Below, piece after piece: positions 4,392 through 20,844 of a stretch of 21,250 nt of DNA. The notes under the pieces were generated by a model. It was given only the letters and a program-made list of their open reading frames with translations, did not search any database and was not told where the DNA came from. Within the stretch, counting starts at the first letter, position 1. Each line of letters opens with the position of its first letter. This stretch comes from a virus, in the IMG/VR virus record IMGVR_UViG_3300008120_009221, positions 1 to 21,250 of that record; one strand, written 5' to 3'. The position numbers and the translations under genes are program-made.

Positions 4392-5678
4392 ATGTTTTGG
4401 CTAATTGAAACTGAAGAACATCTAGAAGTACTACAACAAAAAATCATTAAAGAGGCTTTTGTTGAGATTGTTCCTTACCATGATTATATTCATCCTGCTT
4501 TAAATAAAGCATCATTAGTCTATATTAGACCGTTTAATGACACTAAGGGTTATATGTTATGTATCGACCATAGTGAAACTTTTTCGCTTAATAAAACGGT
4601 AGTAAACAGTATACTACAAAAAATAGGGCGGGTATGGGTACAAGATAAAAAACAAGCATTATTTTACTTCCCAATAAAATGCTTAGCTGACTTATCCATA
4701 TTCTCTCCTCCGTATATACAAAATACAAAGGCACATGATTATTTTTACTCTAAGTATCCTAACTATAGAGAAACAAATAAATTAATACCGGTATCTAAAC
4801 ATTACGAAAGATGCGAACATATTTATGAGCACGTTCATAATGTAATACCAAAGGAACTACCATCGTATTTTGATTTTTATAACAATAAAGTAACATTAGC
4901 ATTCTTTGGAATAGAAAAAAACGGATTAAAAATAGATAAATATGAATTTGATAAACATTATGAGCTCAATCAAGAATTTTATTCTATCCAAGATGATAGG
5001 ATCTACACAAACTACAATTTGGCTACAACAACACGTAGACCAAGTAATTCTTTTAACGGCGTTAATTTCGCAGCAATAAATAAAGATAATGGCTCAAGGA
5101 GAAGCTACATATCGAGTCATGGGTTTATTGAGTTCGATATTAGCGCATATCATCCTACTATTGTTGGTCGCTTACTTGCCTATGATTTTGGCGTTTCAGA
5201 TGTCCACCAAGCATTCGCAGACCTCTATCAAACCAGTTATCAAGAAGCAAAAGAAATCACGTTTAAGCAGCTTTATGGAGGTGTATTTAAAGAGTATGAG
5301 CACCTTGAATTTTTTCAACAAGTAAAGCAGTTTGTAGAAAATAACTGGAATGAGTTTAATAACACGGGACAAGTTACAGTTCCGATTTCAGGTTATGTGT
5401 TTGAAAAGGATAAATTGGAAAATATGAATCCACAAAAACTTTTTAACTATATGTTGCAAAACATAGAAAGTGCTATTAATACTAGGATATTAATAGATAT
5501 ACATAAGTTATTGCGTGGTAAAAAAACCAAGATAGTGTTATATACTTATGATAGTTTTTTGTTTGAACTAGGAGATAAGGAAGAAGGTATTGAACTTGAG
5601 ATAAATAAAGTATTTGAAAAATATAAATTAATTACAAAAACTAAAAAAGGTTATGACTATGATTTTACAAGAGGATAA
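4392..5678 (+). CDS. Divergent, minimal family A DNA polymerase
   Basis: A 428-residue product with the palm and fingers signatures of Pol I-type polymerases. IEKNGLKID at about 174-182 is the usual entry to the polymerase domain, followed by RRPSN at 215-219. Motif A is FDISAY with Asp249. Motif B keeps Lys287, Phe291 and Tyr295-Gly296 in KEITFKQLYGG. A Q-motif-like NYMLQNIESAI lies at 352-362, and motif C is TYDSF with Asp387. Both metal-binding aspartates are present. The steric-gate Glu of motif A is His254, the usual Arg of motif B is Tyr283, and HDE of motif C is YDS. Residues 1-150 may be a degenerate 3'-5' exonuclease fold, but no exonuclease acidic residues are clear. There is no 5' nuclease domain; that activity is a separate gene at 9106. 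It probably synthesises phage DNA. Confidence 0.8.
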   Translation: MFWLIETEEHLEVLQQKIIKEAFVEIVPYHDYIHPALNKASLVYIRPFNDTKGYMLCIDHSETFSLNKTVVNSILQKIGRVWVQDKKQALFYFPIKCLADLSIFSPPYIQNTKAHDYFYSKYPNYRETNKLIPVSKHYERCEHIYEHVHNVIPKELPSYFDFYNNKVTLAFFGIEKNGLKIDKYEFDKHYELNQEFYSIQDDRIYTNYNLATTTRRPSNSFNGVNFAAINKDNGSRRSYISSHGFIEFDISAYHPTIVGRLLAYDFGVSDVHQAFADLYQTSYQEAKEITFKQLYGGVFKEYEHLEFFQQVKQFVENNWNEFNNTGQVTVPISGYVFEKDKLENMNPQKLFNYMLQNIESAINTRILIDIHKLLRGKKTKIVLYTYDSFLFELGDKEEGIELEINKVFEKYKLITKTKKGYDYDFTRG

Positions 5679-5682
5679 ACAT

Positions 5683-6111
5683 ATGTATAGTGGATACGAT
5701 TTTGATTTAACCACCATATGCGACGTGAATAATAAGTTATTTTGTACATTTACTACTTTAGAAAGCTTAGATGATTTAATTAATGATCTGACAAGAGCTT
5801 ATTCTATTATGTATAATAAGATGTTTGTTTTGTATGTTAAAAGTACAGATGAATATGTTATTACTTATAATGTAGAGCAGGGTAATGTAGAAGGTATTCC
5901 ATTGAATACTATTTTAGTACATAGAAAAAAAGAAACCAATACGCTTTATACTATTAATGCGTTGAATGATTTGATAAAAAAGTTAAACGGAGGAGTGGTT
6001 GATCCATCTTACCGTGTGAACTGGCAGCACTATAAAAACTGTATTTTGTTAACCAACCATAATGAGTTGAAACAATTGAATACAAAAGTTTATAAGATTG
6101 TTGAATTGTAA
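5683..6111 (+). CDS. Hypothetical protein downstream of the DNA polymerase
   Basis: I do not recognise this 142-residue protein. I start it at the ATG at 5683 (MYSGYDFDL), five bases after the polymerase stop, rather than at the in-frame ATG at 5653. The upstream start would add ten residues lying wholly inside the polymerase gene. The product looks globular, with alternating strand-like and helix-like segments (LESLDDLINDLTRAYS, then MFVLYVKSTDEYVITYNV) and no cysteine cluster, membrane segment or obvious catalytic motif. Its position directly after the polymerase and before the ssDNA-binding protein suggests a replication accessory role, but that is only context. Confidence 0.6.
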   Translation: MYSGYDFDLTTICDVNNKLFCTFTTLESLDDLINDLTRAYSIMYNKMFVLYVKSTDEYVITYNVEQGNVEGIPLNTILVHRKKETNTLYTINALNDLIKKLNGGVVDPSYRVNWQHYKNCILLTNHNELKQLNTKVYKIVEL

Positions 6112-6112
6112 T

Positions 6113-6174
6113 ATTTATAACATATGAAAAAGGCAGATAACTTTAACGCCAAACAGTGGTTAGTAGAAAATAAA
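6113..6174 (+). repeat. Duplicated leader plus N-terminal tag, copy A
   Basis: The 13 bases ATTTATAACATAT at 6113-6125 and the first 51 coding bases of the 207-residue protein recur at 6747-6818. The 51 coding bases match at 46 positions. Only two of the five differences change an amino acid (Asn/Asp and Val/Ile). Confidence 0.85.
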
Positions 6175-6747
6175 ATTACTTTCCAATCGCGTTTAAATGA
6201 AAATAAAATAGAAGGGGTTAATGTTGAAGTAGATGATAATATGGTTACATTATCTGGTGACAGTGGTGATTATGATGGATTCATTGAAGATGATGGAACT
6301 GTAAGTTTTTCTATTACTTATGATGATATGGATGAAGAGTTCAATGAGAGTAATTGGAAAGATATTTTAAGTGATAATCATGTCTTTGTTAAAGTAGCTA
6401 ACGCTATTGATAATAGAGTAGAAGCTTTAGACGATTATGTACAAATAACTGTTAAAGCAAGTGACTTAACAAGTATGAATGAAACTCGTTTGAATGAAGA
6501 TTGGTTACCTCATAAAGACATGAGTGATAAAGAATATCGTGAAAGTTTTAAAAAATTTGTTATATCTACTTTAAAACAACATGAAGTTATAGATGAACAT
6601 ATTGAAATATATTTAGATGACATTTTGAAGGCAGATGATATAAAAGCATATGAAGGAATTAGTGATAAAAATTTATATGAAGATTTTCTTGAATTTAAAA
6701 ATGATCAAATTGAGCAAGATGAGGATTTATATGATTTCGATTTTTGA
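6124..6747 (+). CDS. Hypothetical acidic protein with MKKADNF...WLVENK N-terminal tag
   Basis: An unrecognised 207-residue, strongly acidic protein. Its first 17 residues (MKKADNFNAKQWLVENK) are nearly identical to those of the next gene, whereas the rest differs. Residues 30-75 are rich in Asp and Gly with short strand-like segments (VNVEVDDNMVTLSGDSGDYD). The C-terminal half (about 125-207) is mostly helix-forming and ends in an Asp/Glu-rich tail. The start is supported by the conserved N-terminal tag, which begins at the ATG. A tag shared by otherwise unrelated proteins suggests sorting to a common place, such as the prohead or the replication complex, or a module copied by recombination. 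There is no enzyme motif. Confidence 0.65.
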   Translation: MKKADNFNAKQWLVENKITFQSRLNENKIEGVNVEVDDNMVTLSGDSGDYDGFIEDDGTVSFSITYDDMDEEFNESNWKDILSDNHVFVKVANAIDNRVEALDDYVQITVKASDLTSMNETRLNEDWLPHKDMSDKEYRESFKKFVISTLKQHEVIDEHIEIYLDDILKADDIKAYEGISDKNLYEDFLEFKNDQIEQDEDLYDFDF

Positions 6748-6818
6748 TTTATAACATATTAATAAGCATGAAAAAAGCAGACAATTTTGACGCCAAACAG
6801 TGGTTAATAGAAAATAAA
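6747..6818 (+). repeat. Duplicated leader plus N-terminal tag, copy B
   Basis: Second copy of the repeat at 6113-6174. The 13-base leader (6747-6759) is exact, followed by nine extra bases and then the tag-coding part from 6768. The match ends after the codons for ENK, where the two proteins diverge. Confidence 0.85.
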
Positions 6819-7016
6819 AAAACCACATCCTCAATATTAAAAGAAGACGAGTCTAAATTTAGCGATATTAATGCTGATATGGACCCGAAGCGTAAAGAAG
6901 ACCTTGAAAATTTGTTAGACGGTATTATTGATGATCTTTATGAGCAGGGAGGTTATGATTTACCTATTGTAAAAGAATATTTAATACATTTGGTTAGTAA
7001 ATCATTTAAATTTTAA
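6768..7016 (+). CDS. Small hypothetical protein with MKKADNF...WLIENK N-terminal tag
   Basis: An 82-residue protein of unknown function. I start it at the ATG at 6768, because the tag MKKADNFDAKQWLIENK begins there exactly as in the preceding gene; eight in-frame codons upstream overlap the repeat leader and are unlikely to be translated. After the tag and a Ser/Thr-rich stretch (KTTSSILKED) comes a charged helical region (DPKRKEDLENLLDGIIDDLY), and the protein ends in SKSFKF. It is the last gene before the GC-rich hairpin at 7031. It may work with the 207-residue protein, but nothing in the sequence gives a biochemical role. Confidence 0.65.
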   Translation: MKKADNFDAKQWLIENKKTTSSILKEDESKFSDINADMDPKRKEDLENLLDGIIDDLYEQGGYDLPIVKEYLIHLVSKSFKF

Positions 7017-7030
7017 ATAAAATAAAATAA

Positions 7031-7051
7031 GGGCCCTTTAAAAGAGGGCCC
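7031..7051 (+). terminator. GC-rich hairpin, possible terminator or SSB leader structure
   Basis: A perfect 9-pair stem (GGGCCCTTT against AGAGGGCCC, one G-U pair) with an AAA loop. It is by far the most GC-rich spot in the surroundings and lies 15 bases after a stop codon. The U-run does not follow at once: TTTT begins at 7064, after a weaker ACCT/AGGT stem. It could therefore be a terminator, an mRNA-stabilising hairpin, or an operator in the leader of the ssDNA-binding-protein gene. Confidence 0.5.
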
Positions 7052-7060
7052 ACCTTAACT

Positions 7061-7076
7061 AGGTTTTATAACACCT
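7061..7076 (+). promoter_or_regulatory. Near-palindrome AGGTTTTATAACACCT upstream of SSB gene
   Basis: A 16-base inverted repeat with one mismatched pair (AGGT-t-TTATAA-c-ACCT), centred 48 bases before the SSB start. A third arm, ACCT at 7052-7055, can pair with the same AGGT, so two short hairpins exclude each other. It could be an operator or a regulatory RNA fold; the short stems keep confidence low. Confidence 0.25.
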
Positions 7077-7116
7077 CGTTCATATATTTCCGATATTAAA
7101 CTAATAAATAAAAATC

Positions 7117-7953
7117 ATGGATATTAATGCTATCAAACAACGACTAAATTCATTACAGTCGACGAACAACACAGGCAAGAAAGAAAAAATTGATTACTCA
7201 AAAGTTTACTGGAAACCAAAAGAAGAAGGAAAGTACCAAATTCGTATTGTTCCTTCAAAATTGAATCCTAAAAACCCATTTCAAGAGGTTTTTGTTCACT
7301 ATGGATTTTCAAAATTTCCTATCTACGCCTTAACTAACTGGGGAGAAAAAGACCCGATTGTAGAATTTGCTGCTCAATTAAGAAAAACTAATGACAAAGA
7401 AAATTGGTCATTGGCTAAAAAATTAGACCCAAAAATGAGAGTTTTTGCTCCTGTAATTGTTAGGGGTGAAGAAGAAAAAGGAGTACGTTTGTGGGAATTT
7501 GGTAAAGAAATTTACATGCAGCTTCTAGGTATTGCTGAAGATGAAGATTATGGAGACTACACTGACATTAATGAAGGTAGAGATTTTACAGTTGATGTAG
7601 TTAAAGGTGACATTGGTGGTCGTCAAGGTCTTAAATCATCAATTCGTATTAAGCCTAAAACAACTTCATTGAGTTCTGATGCTTCATTAATTCAGACATT
7701 CCTTAAAGAGCAACCAGTATTGTTAGAAATTCAACGCAAAATGGAATTTGATGCTTTGAAAGAAGTATTGCAAAATTGGTTGTCACCTGAAGAGGCTACT
7801 GGGGAAGTAGATGAGGATGAAGAAGAAGAAGTAGTAGAAGTAGCTCCAGTTAAAGCTTATGCTTTGAAAACACCTATGGCTCCTAAAGCCAACAAAGCAG
7901 ATCAATTTGATTCTTTGTTTGAAGACGAAGATGACAATGATTTGCCTTTTTAA
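7117..7953 (+). CDS. Single-stranded DNA-binding protein (gp32-like)
   Basis: A 278-residue protein with the layout of T4 gp32. A basic N-terminal segment (about 1-25, including INAIKQRLNSLQ) would mediate cooperative binding. An OB-fold-type core follows (about 30-215, with VYWKPKEEGKYQIRIVPSK and VFVHYGFSK). A long acidic tail (about 226-278) ends in DEDDNDLPF, the tip type through which SSBs recruit partners. Unlike T4 gp32, no His/Cys zinc-binding cluster is visible and I see no cysteine at all. The protein would coat ssDNA at the fork and during recombination. Its place just before the UvsX-like gene fits. The 100-base leader with a hairpin could carry translational self-control, as the T4 gene 32 leader does; that is inference. 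Confidence 0.8.
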   Translation: MDINAIKQRLNSLQSTNNTGKKEKIDYSKVYWKPKEEGKYQIRIVPSKLNPKNPFQEVFVHYGFSKFPIYALTNWGEKDPIVEFAAQLRKTNDKENWSLAKKLDPKMRVFAPVIVRGEEEKGVRLWEFGKEIYMQLLGIAEDEDYGDYTDINEGRDFTVDVVKGDIGGRQGLKSSIRIKPKTTSLSSDASLIQTFLKEQPVLLEIQRKMEFDALKEVLQNWLSPEEATGEVDEDEEEEVVEVAPVKAYALKTPMAPKANKADQFDSLFEDEDDNDLPF

Positions 7954-13383: not shown

Positions 13384-13395
13384 TATTTATAAGAT

Positions 13396-14742
13396 ATGTG
13401 GAACAGTATAAAAGAAAGAATATTCCCCTTTATAATAGCACTTTCCGCACTATCTGTAAGTGCATCAGCAGCGGTTTATAGTGTTACTGGCCTTAGCATG
13501 TTATTTGCTGGGGCTAGTACCGCTGTAATTATTATGGCCGCTTCTTTAGAAGTGTCAAAATTAGTGATTGCTTCTCTATTATATCAATATTGGAATAAAT
13601 TAAATAAAATTCTAAGAACATATTTAACTATAGCCGCCGCTGTATTAATTTTAATCACATCCGCTGGTATTTATGGTTACTTATCTTCAGCATACCAAAA
13701 AACAGCTGACCAAACTAGTATTGTTGATTCTAAAGTAGCGTCTTTAGAAACTAAAAAGAAACTTTATGAAAATACTAGAACCGGTATTCTTCAAGAAAAA
13801 CAATCCTTATCAGAACTAAAAGGCAGTTTGTCTAAAGGATCAACAACCCAATTTACAGATCGTAAAGGTAATTTAGTAGTAAGGTCTAACAATGCCTCTA
13901 TTAAACAAATTGAAAATGCTTCCAAATCAGATGAAAAATTATCTTCTAAATTAGATATAGTAAATGATTCTATATTTTCTTTAGAAACTAAAATATTAGA
14001 AGTTAAAACTAATGCTACAGCAACTAGTGAATTAGGTCCTTTAAAATATTTAAGCGCCCTTACAGGTGTTGCTATGGACCGAATCATTAACTGGTACATA
14101 TTAGTTATTATATTTGTATTTGACCCACTTGCTATTGCTCTTGTTATAGCCGCTAACTTTGCTTTTGCTCAACTTATTAGACGTAAAGAAACACCTATTG
14201 AAGAAACAGTAGAGGGTATGAGAAAAGTAGTTGAGGCCTATGATGACTTAGAAAATGAAATGAAAGAATGGGAAGAAGCTAGTTTGACTGACTTGCAAGA
14301 TAATGAAATTGTTTGGGAAGAACCTAAAAAACAAAATGGTGTTCCTGTAATGGTTGATCCAAAAACAGGTCAATTTTTTTATGAAGAACCAGAAGTTGAA
14401 GTTATAATGAGTGGTGAACCATCTTTAAAGAACTTAGATTTAGATGGTGATGGAGTAGTAGAGGAAGAAGAATTACAACAAGTATTTGATGAAGCTGATA
14501 CTAATGATGATGGTGTGATTGATGAAGAAGAAGCTAAACAAGCTAATTTAGATATTGAGACAGCTAAAAAATTAAATCAATTTAATGAATCTTTAGAAAG
14601 ATTAGAAAGTGTAACTAATAGTTTCACTGGTGCTGAACATGGTAAAAAAGTAAAAGCATTAGAAGAAGTTTCCAAATTAAGAGAACTATTAACCCAACAA
14701 TTCCAGTCTAGAAAAGATGATGATACTATAACTTATTTCTAA
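13396..14742 (+). CDS. Multi-pass membrane protein with coiled coil and two EF-hands
   Basis: A 448-residue inner-membrane protein. Hydrophobic segments lie at about 9-31, 34-60, 74-96 and 231-260. Between the third and fourth is a charged region (about 100-225) that looks coiled-coil. After a cytoplasmic-type acidic region (about 270-345) come two canonical 12-residue EF-hand calcium loops: DLDGDGVVEEEE at 348-359 and DTNDDGVIDEEE at 368-379, with all usual ligand positions filled. A helical tail follows (380-448). Related membrane proteins with the same start (GASTAVIIMAASLEVSKLV) occur in large marine phages as proteins of unknown function, as far as I recall. It could tether replication to the membrane or remodel the host membrane in response to calcium; neither is shown by the sequence. 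Confidence 0.7.
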   Translation: MWNSIKERIFPFIIALSALSVSASAAVYSVTGLSMLFAGASTAVIIMAASLEVSKLVIASLLYQYWNKLNKILRTYLTIAAAVLILITSAGIYGYLSSAYQKTADQTSIVDSKVASLETKKKLYENTRTGILQEKQSLSELKGSLSKGSTTQFTDRKGNLVVRSNNASIKQIENASKSDEKLSSKLDIVNDSIFSLETKILEVKTNATATSELGPLKYLSALTGVAMDRIINWYILVIIFVFDPLAIALVIAANFAFAQLIRRKETPIEETVEGMRKVVEAYDDLENEMKEWEEASLTDLQDNEIVWEEPKKQNGVPVMVDPKTGQFFYEEPEVEVIMSGEPSLKNLDLDGDGVVEEEELQQVFDEADTNDDGVIDEEEAKQANLDIETAKKLNQFNESLERLESVTNSFTGAEHGKKVKALEEVSKLRELLTQQFQSRKDDDTITYF

Positions 14743-16989: not shown

Positions 16990-17130
16990 ATGAAAAAACA
17001 AATAGAAATGAACTCTGCTTGGGAAGCAGAAATTAAAAAACAATTAGATAACATTTGGAAAAATCGCCATCGCCTTAGTTTGGCTAATTTAGAAATGTTA
17101 CATAGATTAGCAAATAAAACAAAACTATGA
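16990..17130 (+). CDS. Very small basic protein (46 aa) overlapping the queC start
   Basis: An ATG-to-TGA frame of 46 codons (MKKQIEMNSAWEAEIKK..., ending LHRLANKTKL). It starts two bases after the previous stop and its TGA overlaps the queC ATG (ATGA), the same junction type used by confirmed neighbours. That position, and the lack of any other gene in this 139-base gap, support it as real. The product is amphipathic and helical with a net positive charge (KNRHRLSLANLEMLHRLANK). It could be a translation-coupling peptide for queC or a small nucleic-acid-binding protein. The promoter-like element at 17079 lies inside it. Confidence 0.55.
   Translation: MKKQIEMNSAWEAEIKKQLDNIWKNRHRLSLANLEMLHRLANKTKL
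17079..17110 (+). promoter_or_regulatory. Bacteroidota-type promoter (copy 5), ahead of queC
   Basis: TTTGGC at 17079-17084, 18 bases, then TAGATTAG at 17103-17110. This is the most divergent -7 of the five, but the spacing is identical. It would start transcription about 13 bases before the queC ATG, the same distance as at 4345 and 14750. Confidence 0.45.
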
Positions 17131-17999
17131 AACAACAAGCCGTATTATCGTTAAGTGGAGGGATGGATTCTTCTACTTTATTACTTCACCTACTTGCTCA
17201 AGGAAATGAAGTAACAGCATTGTCTTTTGATTATGGACAAAAACACTCTGTTGAACTTGAACGTGCTAAAGATTTAGTAGATTATATTAATAATATGATT
17301 GATAATGATGATTTTTCAAAAACAATAAATCATCCATGTCGTATAAAGTATCAAGTAATTAAACTTGATGGTTTAAGCCAACTACTTAATTCAGCGCTTG
17401 TAACAGGAGGAGATGAAGTACCTGAAGGTCACTATGCTGAAGAAAACATGAAAGCAACAGTTGTTCCTAATCGTAATAAAATATTTAGTTCAATTATTCA
17501 AGCGGTAGCTTTGTCTATTGCTGAGTCTAAAAGAGCAAATTGTAAAATTGCTATGGGGATACATGCCGGTGATCATTCAATTTATCCTGATTGTCGTCAA
17601 GAATTTAGAGATGTTGATTTTGAAGCATTTAAATTAGGTAATTGGAATGCTGAAAGTGTTAGACATTATACTCCTTATTTGCATGGTGATAAATTTAGTA
17701 TTTTAGAGGATGGTTTAAGATGTTGTGAAATACTAGGATTTGATTTTGATGAAATTTATCGTCGTACAAATACAAGTTACAAACCAATGATACATTTAAT
17801 ATTTGATAATTATGGAAATCCTACACCTGAATGGTTTTCAGATTACAAATCAGCATCATCTGTTGAACGTGTTGAAGCCTTTATTAAACTAGGTAGAAAA
17901 GACCCTGTAAACTATGCTGATGAATTTGGACCAGTAACTTGGGAATATGTAAAAGAATACGTATCTTCAGTATTAGATGACCACAAAAAGACGATATAA
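17127..17999 (+). CDS. queC: 7-cyano-7-deazaguanine synthase QueC, lacking the zinc-site cysteines
   Basis: A 290-residue PP-loop ATPase of the QueC family. Visible motifs are SGGMDS (10-15), SFDYGQKHSVE (33-43), VVPNRNKIF (112-120) and HAGDHSIYPDCRQEF (146-160). QueC turns 7-carboxy-7-deazaguanine first into the amide (ADG) and then into the nitrile preQ0, using ATP and ammonia. In the usual enzyme four C-terminal cysteines bind zinc (one in T-x-S/T-C-Y, three in CGxCxxC). Here the aligned positions are Ser217, Asp239, Ser242 and Ser245, although the following Arg and the GxxDP element (256-260) still align. It is also longer than E. coli QueC (231 residues). Loss of zinc may mean a different fold-stabilising solution or an altered product. 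The downstream gene begins inside its 3' end. Confidence 0.85.
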   Translation: MKQQAVLSLSGGMDSSTLLLHLLAQGNEVTALSFDYGQKHSVELERAKDLVDYINNMIDNDDFSKTINHPCRIKYQVIKLDGLSQLLNSALVTGGDEVPEGHYAEENMKATVVPNRNKIFSSIIQAVALSIAESKRANCKIAMGIHAGDHSIYPDCRQEFRDVDFEAFKLGNWNAESVRHYTPYLHGDKFSILEDGLRCCEILGFDFDEIYRRTNTSYKPMIHLIFDNYGNPTPEWFSDYKSASSVERVEAFIKLGRKDPVNYADEFGPVTWEYVKEYVSSVLDDHKKTI

Positions 18000-20052: not shown

Positions 20053-20844
20053 ATGACAAAAGAAGATAAAAAACCAGGTCGTATTACTGACTATAATAAA
20101 AAATTACCTGTACTTGAAGTTTATACTTGTATCCAATCAGAAGGTTCAAGACAAGGCAGACCAACTGTAGCAATTAGAACAACAGGATGTACTCACAGAT
20201 GTTGGTTTGGTGCTGGTGGTTGGTGTGATAGTTGGTACACAAGTATCCACCCTGAAAAAGGTATTTATACATTTAATGACATCATTAAAATTTACGATGA
20301 AAATCCTGAGATTAAGGAAATGATGTTAACAGGAGGTTCACCAACAATGCAACCTGACCTTTGTAATGAATTAACTCACTTTGCTCATGAACGTGGTATA
20401 TGTATAACCATTGAAACAGAAGGTAGCCACTTTGTTGAAACCGATTATCCGTTTGGGTTGGTATCTTTATCTCCAAAGTTTGCCAATTCTGTTCCTGCTC
20501 TTGACGTTACCACTCCAATGGGTAAGCTCGTGGATCAGAAAATGATTGACCAACATAACAAACTTCGTTTGAATAAAGAGGCAATTCGTAAAACCTTAGA
20601 TTACCATACAGATTATCATTACAAACCAGTTTATGATGGACATAAAGGTACACTGGAAGAAATTGAGGCATTTAGGGTTGAAATGAATATTCCTAAAAAC
20701 AAAACATGGTTAATGCCTGCTGGTGACACTAGAGAGGAATTGATTAAACAATATCCTATTAGTTTAGAAATGGCCTTTGAAATGGGTTATAATTGGACAG
20801 GTAGAGATCATATTATTAGTTACGATACTAAGAGAGCAGTTTAA
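20053..20844 (+). CDS. queE: 7-carboxy-7-deazaguanine synthase QueE (radical SAM)
   Basis: A 263-residue radical SAM enzyme that rearranges 6-carboxytetrahydropterin to 7-carboxy-7-deazaguanine. The N-terminal VYTCIQSEGSRQGRPTVAIR (23-42) is the usual start of QueE. The iron-sulfur ligands are Cys46, Cys50 and Cys58 (CTHRC...WCDS), with CX3CX7C spacing instead of the common CX3CX2C. The SAM motif is MLTGGSPTMQ (91-100), with Ser where most QueE proteins have Glu (GGEP). ETEGSH (121-126) and LSLSPK (137-142) also match the family. A 220-MPAGD stretch near the end fits the usual C-terminal strand. It follows queD by two bases, and its stop overlaps the next start. The family call is firm. Confidence 0.87.
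   Translation: MTKEDKKPGRITDYNKKLPVLEVYTCIQSEGSRQGRPTVAIRTTGCTHRCWFGAGGWCDSWYTSIHPEKGIYTFNDIIKIYDENPEIKEMMLTGGSPTMQPDLCNELTHFAHERGICITIETEGSHFVETDYPFGLVSLSPKFANSVPALDVTTPMGKLVDQKMIDQHNKLRLNKEAIRKTLDYHTDYHYKPVYDGHKGTLEEIEAFRVEMNIPKNKTWLMPAGDTREELIKQYPISLEMAFEMGYNWTGRDHIISYDTKRAV

Follow-up and report, generated by a model that had tools for sequence, protein, structure and literature searches.

Two adjacent genes of a phage DNA fragment begin with almost the same peptide and continue as unlike proteins, which raises the question of what such a shared N-terminus serves for. The fragment, hereafter the window, comprises the whole of an IMG/VR record (21,250 bases). It is a fragment of a T4-like phage, and its single-stranded DNA-binding protein (SSB) gene was 51% identical to the SSB gene of the Flavobacterium phage immuto. 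Gene 1 (6124–6747, plus strand) encodes 207 amino acids consisting of a tag, a domain A, an internal RLNE site and a domain B. Gene 2 (6768–7016, plus strand) encodes 82 amino acids, a tag and a 56-residue cargo, when read from the ATG at 6768, which was used here; the list of open reading frames (ORFs) gave a TTG at 6744 as the start. Tag 1 (6124–6201, plus strand, LNE end) and tag 2 (6768–6845, plus strand, LKE end) are both 26 residues long, and both are predicted propeptides. The pair is bordered on the left by a conserved relative of immuto gp002 (5653–6111, plus strand, 57% identity) and on the right by the conserved SSB gene (7117–7953, plus strand).

The sequence-only reading had described a 13-base leader and 51 coding bases, 46 of them identical, shared by the two genes, and the base comparison bore this out. 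The leader, ATTTATAACATAT, which includes ATTTATAA, was found at 6113–6125, ending in the AT of the gene 1 start codon, and again at 6747–6759 (plus strand), beginning 21 nt upstream of the ATG of gene 2. The five differences within the first 17 codons were three synonymous and two amino-acid changes (N8D, V14I), so that the description of them as mostly synonymous was barely true. The shared tag is real, but the length of 17 residues assigned to it was not: the similarity covered 26 residues and ended in LxE (LNE vs LKE). The remaining parts of the two proteins were unlike, as had been claimed, and no match was obtained beyond residue 26. The shared start is far above chance; the first 28 residues of gene 1 matched the whole 21,250-base record in two places only, with E values of 1.2e-16 and 1.2e-9. 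Over codons 2–26 the pair gave a pS of 0.58 and a pN of 0.18, which ruled out a recent duplication of the start.

The first leader copy overlaps a motif, TATTTATAA, located before gene 1 (6112–6120, plus strand), and the second copy contains GATTTATAA, one base short of this motif. An ORF start followed 8–35 nt downstream of 16 of the 18 copies of TATTTATAA in immuto (15 of 17 after correction for one double-counted place) and of 31 of the 43 copies in the related genome G001, when 126 permutations of the same bases gave means of 1.1 and 2.7 such matches, respectively. Hence, TATTTATAA is strongly associated with gene starts in this phage group, and it is probably a late promoter; in immuto it lies upstream of the portal, sheath and tube genes. 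The overlapping ATATTTATA scored slightly above TATTTATAA in G001. In the same genome, 15 of 32 motif-to-ATG distances were 11 or 12 nt, which would mean nearly leaderless messages if TATTTATAA were a −10-like promoter element, an odd arrangement. The exact motif preceded one of the four tagged genes of immuto, two of the four of G001 and one of the two of the window. It was also seen at 13384 in the window, 12 nt before a gene (13396–14742) that may be a late gene on account of this distance; its 448-amino-acid product showed, by eye, membrane segments and EF-hand-like acidic loops.

It had also been suggested that the tag might be present on more proteins elsewhere in the genome. The window offered only the two places given above, and it was in relatives that the expectation held, four immuto proteins being tagged. 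A search with the window tag alone against 50,697 annotated phage records gave no match, and the immuto-type tag retrieved only the four immuto records from the same set. A degenerate DNA pattern for the tag core yielded 13 stretches in viral contigs, and the search with gene 1 yielded 26 loci, 12 of which matched only within residues 1–46. A profile was built from related tags of immuto and two other records (MENFDLKKFLVENKL...). By using it, 459 pattern stretches with 318 confirmed relatives were obtained in one collection, and the best 80 of the 318 were read. The loci read contained 122 distinct tagged N-termini, a number that includes near-duplicates as well as some internal tags that have their own Met and excludes 4 of 242 core matches located more than 12 residues from a Met. 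When the tag was removed, the 122 proteins fell into 66 cargo clusters (blastp, E 1e-3), between which remote kinship is possible.

The complete immuto genome contained exactly four profile matches at E 1 or better, each starting an annotated protein (gp003, gp076, gp077 and gp092), and gp003 occupies the genomic place of the window pair. The predicted cuts follow E24 in gp003 and gp076 and E25 in gp077. Eight further records of 56–167 kb had one to seven profile matches each. When bacterial genomes were scanned with the immuto-type profile, 27 pattern stretches and a single confirmed relative were obtained, which argues against the tag as a general host signal. The relative was located in the contig CALMEO010000055.1 of a metagenome-assembled genome (L194; 104,613 bases, binned as an uncultured bacterium), where one protein has both an N-terminal and an internal tag; the contig is perhaps a mis-binned phage. 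Starts resembling the tag were also noticed in immuto gp069 (MENNFDIHKW..LKE; L082:25241–25468) and near 78,166 of G001 (MKDNFDVHKW..LTE; L074:18166). The gp069 gene has the protease gene on one side and gp067, taken for the scaffold, on the other, and gp069 may be a core protein. In the literature searched, no paper with any of four tag strings, no paper pairing 'capsid targeting sequence' with 'Flavobacterium', and no title or opening of an abstract on these tags was found.

The end of the tag was the most regular part of this collection. An [LIVM]xE ended at residue 19–33 in 121 of the 122 tagged N-termini, and the strict [LI]xE was present in 112; the single protein without it, L006, read SRLTKE. 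Column information for one representative per cluster, with columns anchored on the tag-end glutamate and the E itself hence fixed, was about 1.6–3.5 bits in the tag, 0.86 bits at the first residue after the E and 0.1–0.4 bits in the next fourteen residues beyond. Due to this anchoring the count was redone unanchored, and the site was found in the tag window of 65 of 66 cluster representatives, when five downstream windows of equal width contained it in 15/66, 15/65, 7/65, 15/65 and 18/64 cases. The prohead-protease motif of the T4 type is [LI]xE. An example of it is LIE-9 of gp21 (PMC9026906). Judged by its sequence, the point at which conservation stops is a site of the kind cut by T4-type prohead proteases. 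The motif is a weak one, as [LI]xE was also present at residues 8–30 in 64 of the 203 immuto ORFs that lack the start motif. An enrichment of N-terminal [LI]xE among the ORFs behind TATTTATAA was considered and rejected: it fitted G001 (18/31 vs 66/197 other ORFs) and failed in immuto (5/16 vs 64/203).

Selection on the peptide, another proposal of the sequence-only reading, was supported by the collection. Between tags of different cargo clusters pS was 0.59 and pN 0.14–0.19, from which it follows that the tag peptide is under selection and that the copies are old; the five same-contig tag pairs gave pS values of 0.50–0.81. These numbers bear on the explanation by which the shared start is a relic at the DNA level, that is, a duplicated start, a recombination element or a translation-start element whose peptide has no role. 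The shared leader motif would fit such a relic, but the synonymous sites have diverged while the peptide was kept, and we regard this explanation as extremely improbable.

The enzyme which such a site calls for was present in the phage group. In immuto, the S77 prohead protease is gp070 (PF03420, E 8.9e-35; T4 gp21 structure 5jbl, E 3.2e-24). PF03420 was detected in 7 of 18 tag-bearing records searched, including all six of 135 kb or more, and in none of 14 control genomes; the eleven tag-bearing records without it were 98.8 kb or shorter and may be fragments. The window fragment itself is without the genes for the protease and for a gp23-type capsid protein. G003, which has PF03420, contained a 20-kb piece in which 14,351 bases aligned with the window at 87.8% identity. 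Both the gp23-type capsid protein and the S77 protease were found in the relatives immuto and G001, and their capsid proteins carry IVSE-59 and LVTE-60, respectively, in front of the gp23 domain. These putative sites are near the place where the 65-residue capsid propeptide of T4 (PMC5694885) ends. Two S77-type prohead protease matches were noted in G002 (L199, L203; 268,739 bases).

We proposed that the tag is a propeptide which targets proteins to the capsid and is cut off by the prohead protease, and to this reading, which predicts both packaging and cleavage of the tagged proteins, a probability of about 0.84 was assigned. The tag, made as part of each small protein, would dock the protein to the prohead core, and the T4-type (S77) prohead protease would cut after the glutamate of the terminal [LI]xE. 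The mature cargo would thereby be freed inside the head and would then probably be injected together with the DNA. From the window alone, a signal for sorting or processing had been suspected, with packaging in the prohead as an example. The suspicion was strengthened by the LxE end and by the S77 protease in immuto and in 6/6 of the searched tag-bearing records of 135 kb or more, and further by the cargo exchange at the site and the two unrelated tags on related cargos described below.

The closest known counterpart is found in T4, where the propeptides of the adjacent ipII and ipIII are capsid targeting sequences (CTS) that are cut off proteolytically in the head; their targeting role was demonstrated with fusions and mutations (PMC9026906). 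The internal proteins of T-even phages are described as highly diverse defence proteins with only the targeting sequence conserved (PMC3012670). In our T4 control, the adjacent ipII and ipIII had the same first ten residues and differed afterwards. Like the CTS of T4 (IPI, IPII, IPIII and Alt; removed by gp21), the tag is a short peptide at the N-terminus of small, fast-changing proteins that are otherwise unrelated, its shared part ends in xE, and an S77 prohead protease occurs in the phage group. The sharing of only the targeting peptide by adjacent genes is an exact parallel to the window pair. Several features differ, however. The tags were mostly 23–26 residues long, compared with 10–19 for the T4 CTS, they belong to at least two unrelated classes, and some of them are internal in long ORFs; a further difference is the one to seven profile matches per record in eight records. 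The cargos were mostly acidic, whereas the T4 internal proteins are basic with a net charge of +2 to +9, basic cargo being typical and not defining. A by-eye comparison of the T4 MKTYQEFIAE with the tags revealed no likeness beyond the xE end, and for this reason the tag was counted as working like a CTS and not as the same tag. By its sequence features, the window has the T4 internal-protein layout with an unrelated, longer tag.

Two other systems share some of these features. Head proteins of SPN3US and phiKZ have propeptides which are cut after glutamate by the prohead protease (PMC5694885). According to the same source, SPN3US gp53 and gp54, two diverged head proteins, have identical 15-residue N-termini, a sharing like that of the window pair. 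The motif given there is AxE, several propeptides exceed 100 residues, and gp53 and gp54 are paralogues, whereas the tags described here end in [LIVM]xE and precede mostly unrelated cargos. The polyvalent proteins of phages and plasmids are multi-part polypeptides thought to be injected early (PMC5512222), in which they resemble the joined cargos found here. They are described as joining enzyme domains, some with a metallopeptidase of their own, when the proteins analysed here would join short orphan cargos at sites of the prohead-protease type. No enzyme domain of that kind was credited in 69 tagged proteins at E 0.01.

A second tag class, MKKxxLxExFxRMQxLAGIxxE, was first met in G001 and immuto, on ORFs preceded by the start motif; immuto gp230 has a start of this type (RMQKLAG). 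The scan for it gave 310 stretches with 81 confirmed, of which 80 were kept. In the loci analysed, 65 distinct N-termini with 49 cargo clusters were obtained, the counts excluding ORFs shorter than 45 residues and three motifs that had no Met within 14 residues. An [LIVM]xE was present within nine residues after LAG[IVL] in 64 of 65 N-termini; the control windows contained it in 8/65, 6/64, 7/64 and 11/64. The cargos of 12 of the 65 second-class proteins matched first-class cargos at E 1e-3, some of them weakly, and five cross-class pairs were inspected. For L257 and L022 the alignment of 97 columns started precisely at LNE|D vs INE|D, and the tags before it were unrelated. For L302 and L079 it started six residues upstream of the cut, and two of these residues matched; for L274 and L160 it started well inside the cargo, and the low-level alignments of L232/L177 and L233/L137 started within the tags. 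One clean and one near-clean case of a cargo with two unrelated tags are thus the strongest evidence, at the level of sequence comparison, for a common fate of the tags.

The tags could also be uncut docking peptides for the tail, the baseplate or an infection compartment. A conserved short N-terminus fits such a peptide as well, but conservation stops at a protease-type site, the two unrelated tags share that end, and internal tags are flanked by such sites on both sides; the uncut docking peptide was therefore considered improbable. Twelve distinct internal tag cores were found 120–425 residues behind the first Met of long ORFs, nine of which were also tagged at the N-terminus, with a tag of the gp077 type or a similar one. 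An [LIVM]xE was present within the preceding 22 residues in all twelve, mostly as ALQE, although several of these ORFs are related and not independent, and 22 residues can hold such a motif by chance. It also followed the tag in all ten uncut cases; the two cut ones, L127 and L224, end inside the tag. Four of the ten uncut tags had no Met of their own and are hence readable only as part of the long protein, which again speaks against a DNA-level relic, since these are full tags without a start codon. Eight long ORFs (L116, L125, L126, L129, L166, L194, L216 and L226) were relatives or look-alikes of immuto gp077. Besides the N-terminal tag, they contained a variable part, a conserved stretch of charged residues and a second tag, to which another cargo belongs.

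Gene 1 of the window has a layout of tag-A-NETRLNE-B. Domain A (6202–6462, plus strand; residues 27–113) is a compact beta-rich domain and domain B (6499–6744, plus strand; residues 126–207) is helical with low model confidence. The RLNE between them (6487–6498, plus strand; residues 122–125) is a predicted second cleavage site. In the AlphaFold2 model, obtained from six sequences, the block means were 79–93 over residues 31–110 (the compact domain A), and pLDDT was below 50 for the tag residues 1–25 (with a helix at 9–15) and for the linker 118–129, in which the RLNE lies. The low confidence at the predicted cuts is unspecific, as most of domain B was low too, in parts below 50. The model of gene 2, made from a single sequence, was all-helical and of low confidence (mean pLDDT 66). 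No fold in PDB or BFVD matched the model of gene 1 with an E value of 0.001 or lower. Gene 1 looks like the precursor of two cargos, A and B, both of which would be released through the RLNE as the second site.

The related loci contained the same modules in other combinations. The tag and domain A stood alone in L020, another domain, C, followed the same RLNE in L009 and L016 (tag-A-NETRLNE-C), and domain B was located directly behind the tag in L017, L018 and L019. When L018 was compared with the window over 5600–7200, the left side, tag included, was 96.4% identical over 605 nt, domain B 96.8% over 281 nt and the right side 94.9% over 196 nt, and domain A and gene 2 were missing from L018. 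The junction was a 20-nt tract common to the tag end and the internal RLNE site. These comparisons indicate that close relatives of the window swap cargo at the tag-end site, and that the locus flanked by the gp002 relative and the SSB gene is a cassette site for cargo exchange, in which the exchange would take place at the cleavage site. The use of the tag-end tract as homology in L018 would also suit the DNA-level relic.

The cargos were mostly acidic: the net charge was below −3 in 47 of the 66 cluster representatives and above +3 in five, with a median of −9, and it was −34 and −7 for the two cargos of the window. Family searches were performed with 69 tagged proteins, namely the 66 representatives (including window gene 2), gene 1, L034 and immuto gp077. 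Against Pfam, PHROG, NCBIfam and PADLOC at E 0.01 they gave only scattered single matches, none of which was credited, and consequently no cargo was recognized as a known injected protein. The best uncredited matches were to Pfam PF20216 (unknown function, 9.7e-05) and PHROG 13468 (no function, 1.8e-06), and those in NCBIfam and PADLOC had values of 0.00065 and 0.00023, respectively. Immuto gp077 is annotated as a cob(I)alamin adenosyltransferase, and no support for this annotation was seen.

The charge of the cargos bears on the explanation by which the tagged proteins form the prohead core or scaffold, the tag docks them, the protease chops them and the pieces leave the head without injection. 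Acidic cargos would fit it, as would the long charged stretches of the gp077 type and the position of immuto gp077 and gp076 just upstream of the terminase gene. The cargos are, however, very diverse and differ between close relatives, unlike the T4 core proteins, which are described as conserved (PMC9026906), and domain A was modeled as a confident compact domain. A core or scaffold role was thus considered unlikely, if less so than the uncut docking peptide, and the capsid-targeting propeptide was retained as the preferred explanation.

A broader proposal, to which we would give about even odds, is that T4-like relatives of the Flavobacterium phage have a modular head-delivery system. It would comprise at least two unrelated interchangeable tags, fast-swapping orphan cargos, recombination at the protease site and true polyprotein precursors releasing two or more cargos. 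Injected phage proteins are hard to tell from their sequence, many of them being small orphans, and a removable label would turn their recognition into a pattern search. If the proposal is true, the tags alone would reveal hundreds of injected, probably anti-defence proteins. T4 IPI* is an inhibitor of host defence (PMC3012670), and by analogy with it the cargos are natural candidates for inhibitors of this type. The proposal also predicts that precursors are processed inside the phage head and that there is a way to load foreign proteins into the heads of this phage group.

Genes of another kind were noticed in the same phages. Immuto is annotated with queuosine/deazaguanine genes and DpdA (gp028, gp202, gp206, gp210, gp214 and gp216), and the window encodes proteins at 17127–17999 and 20053–20844 that by eye resembled QueC and QueE, respectively, which suggests modified DNA bases.
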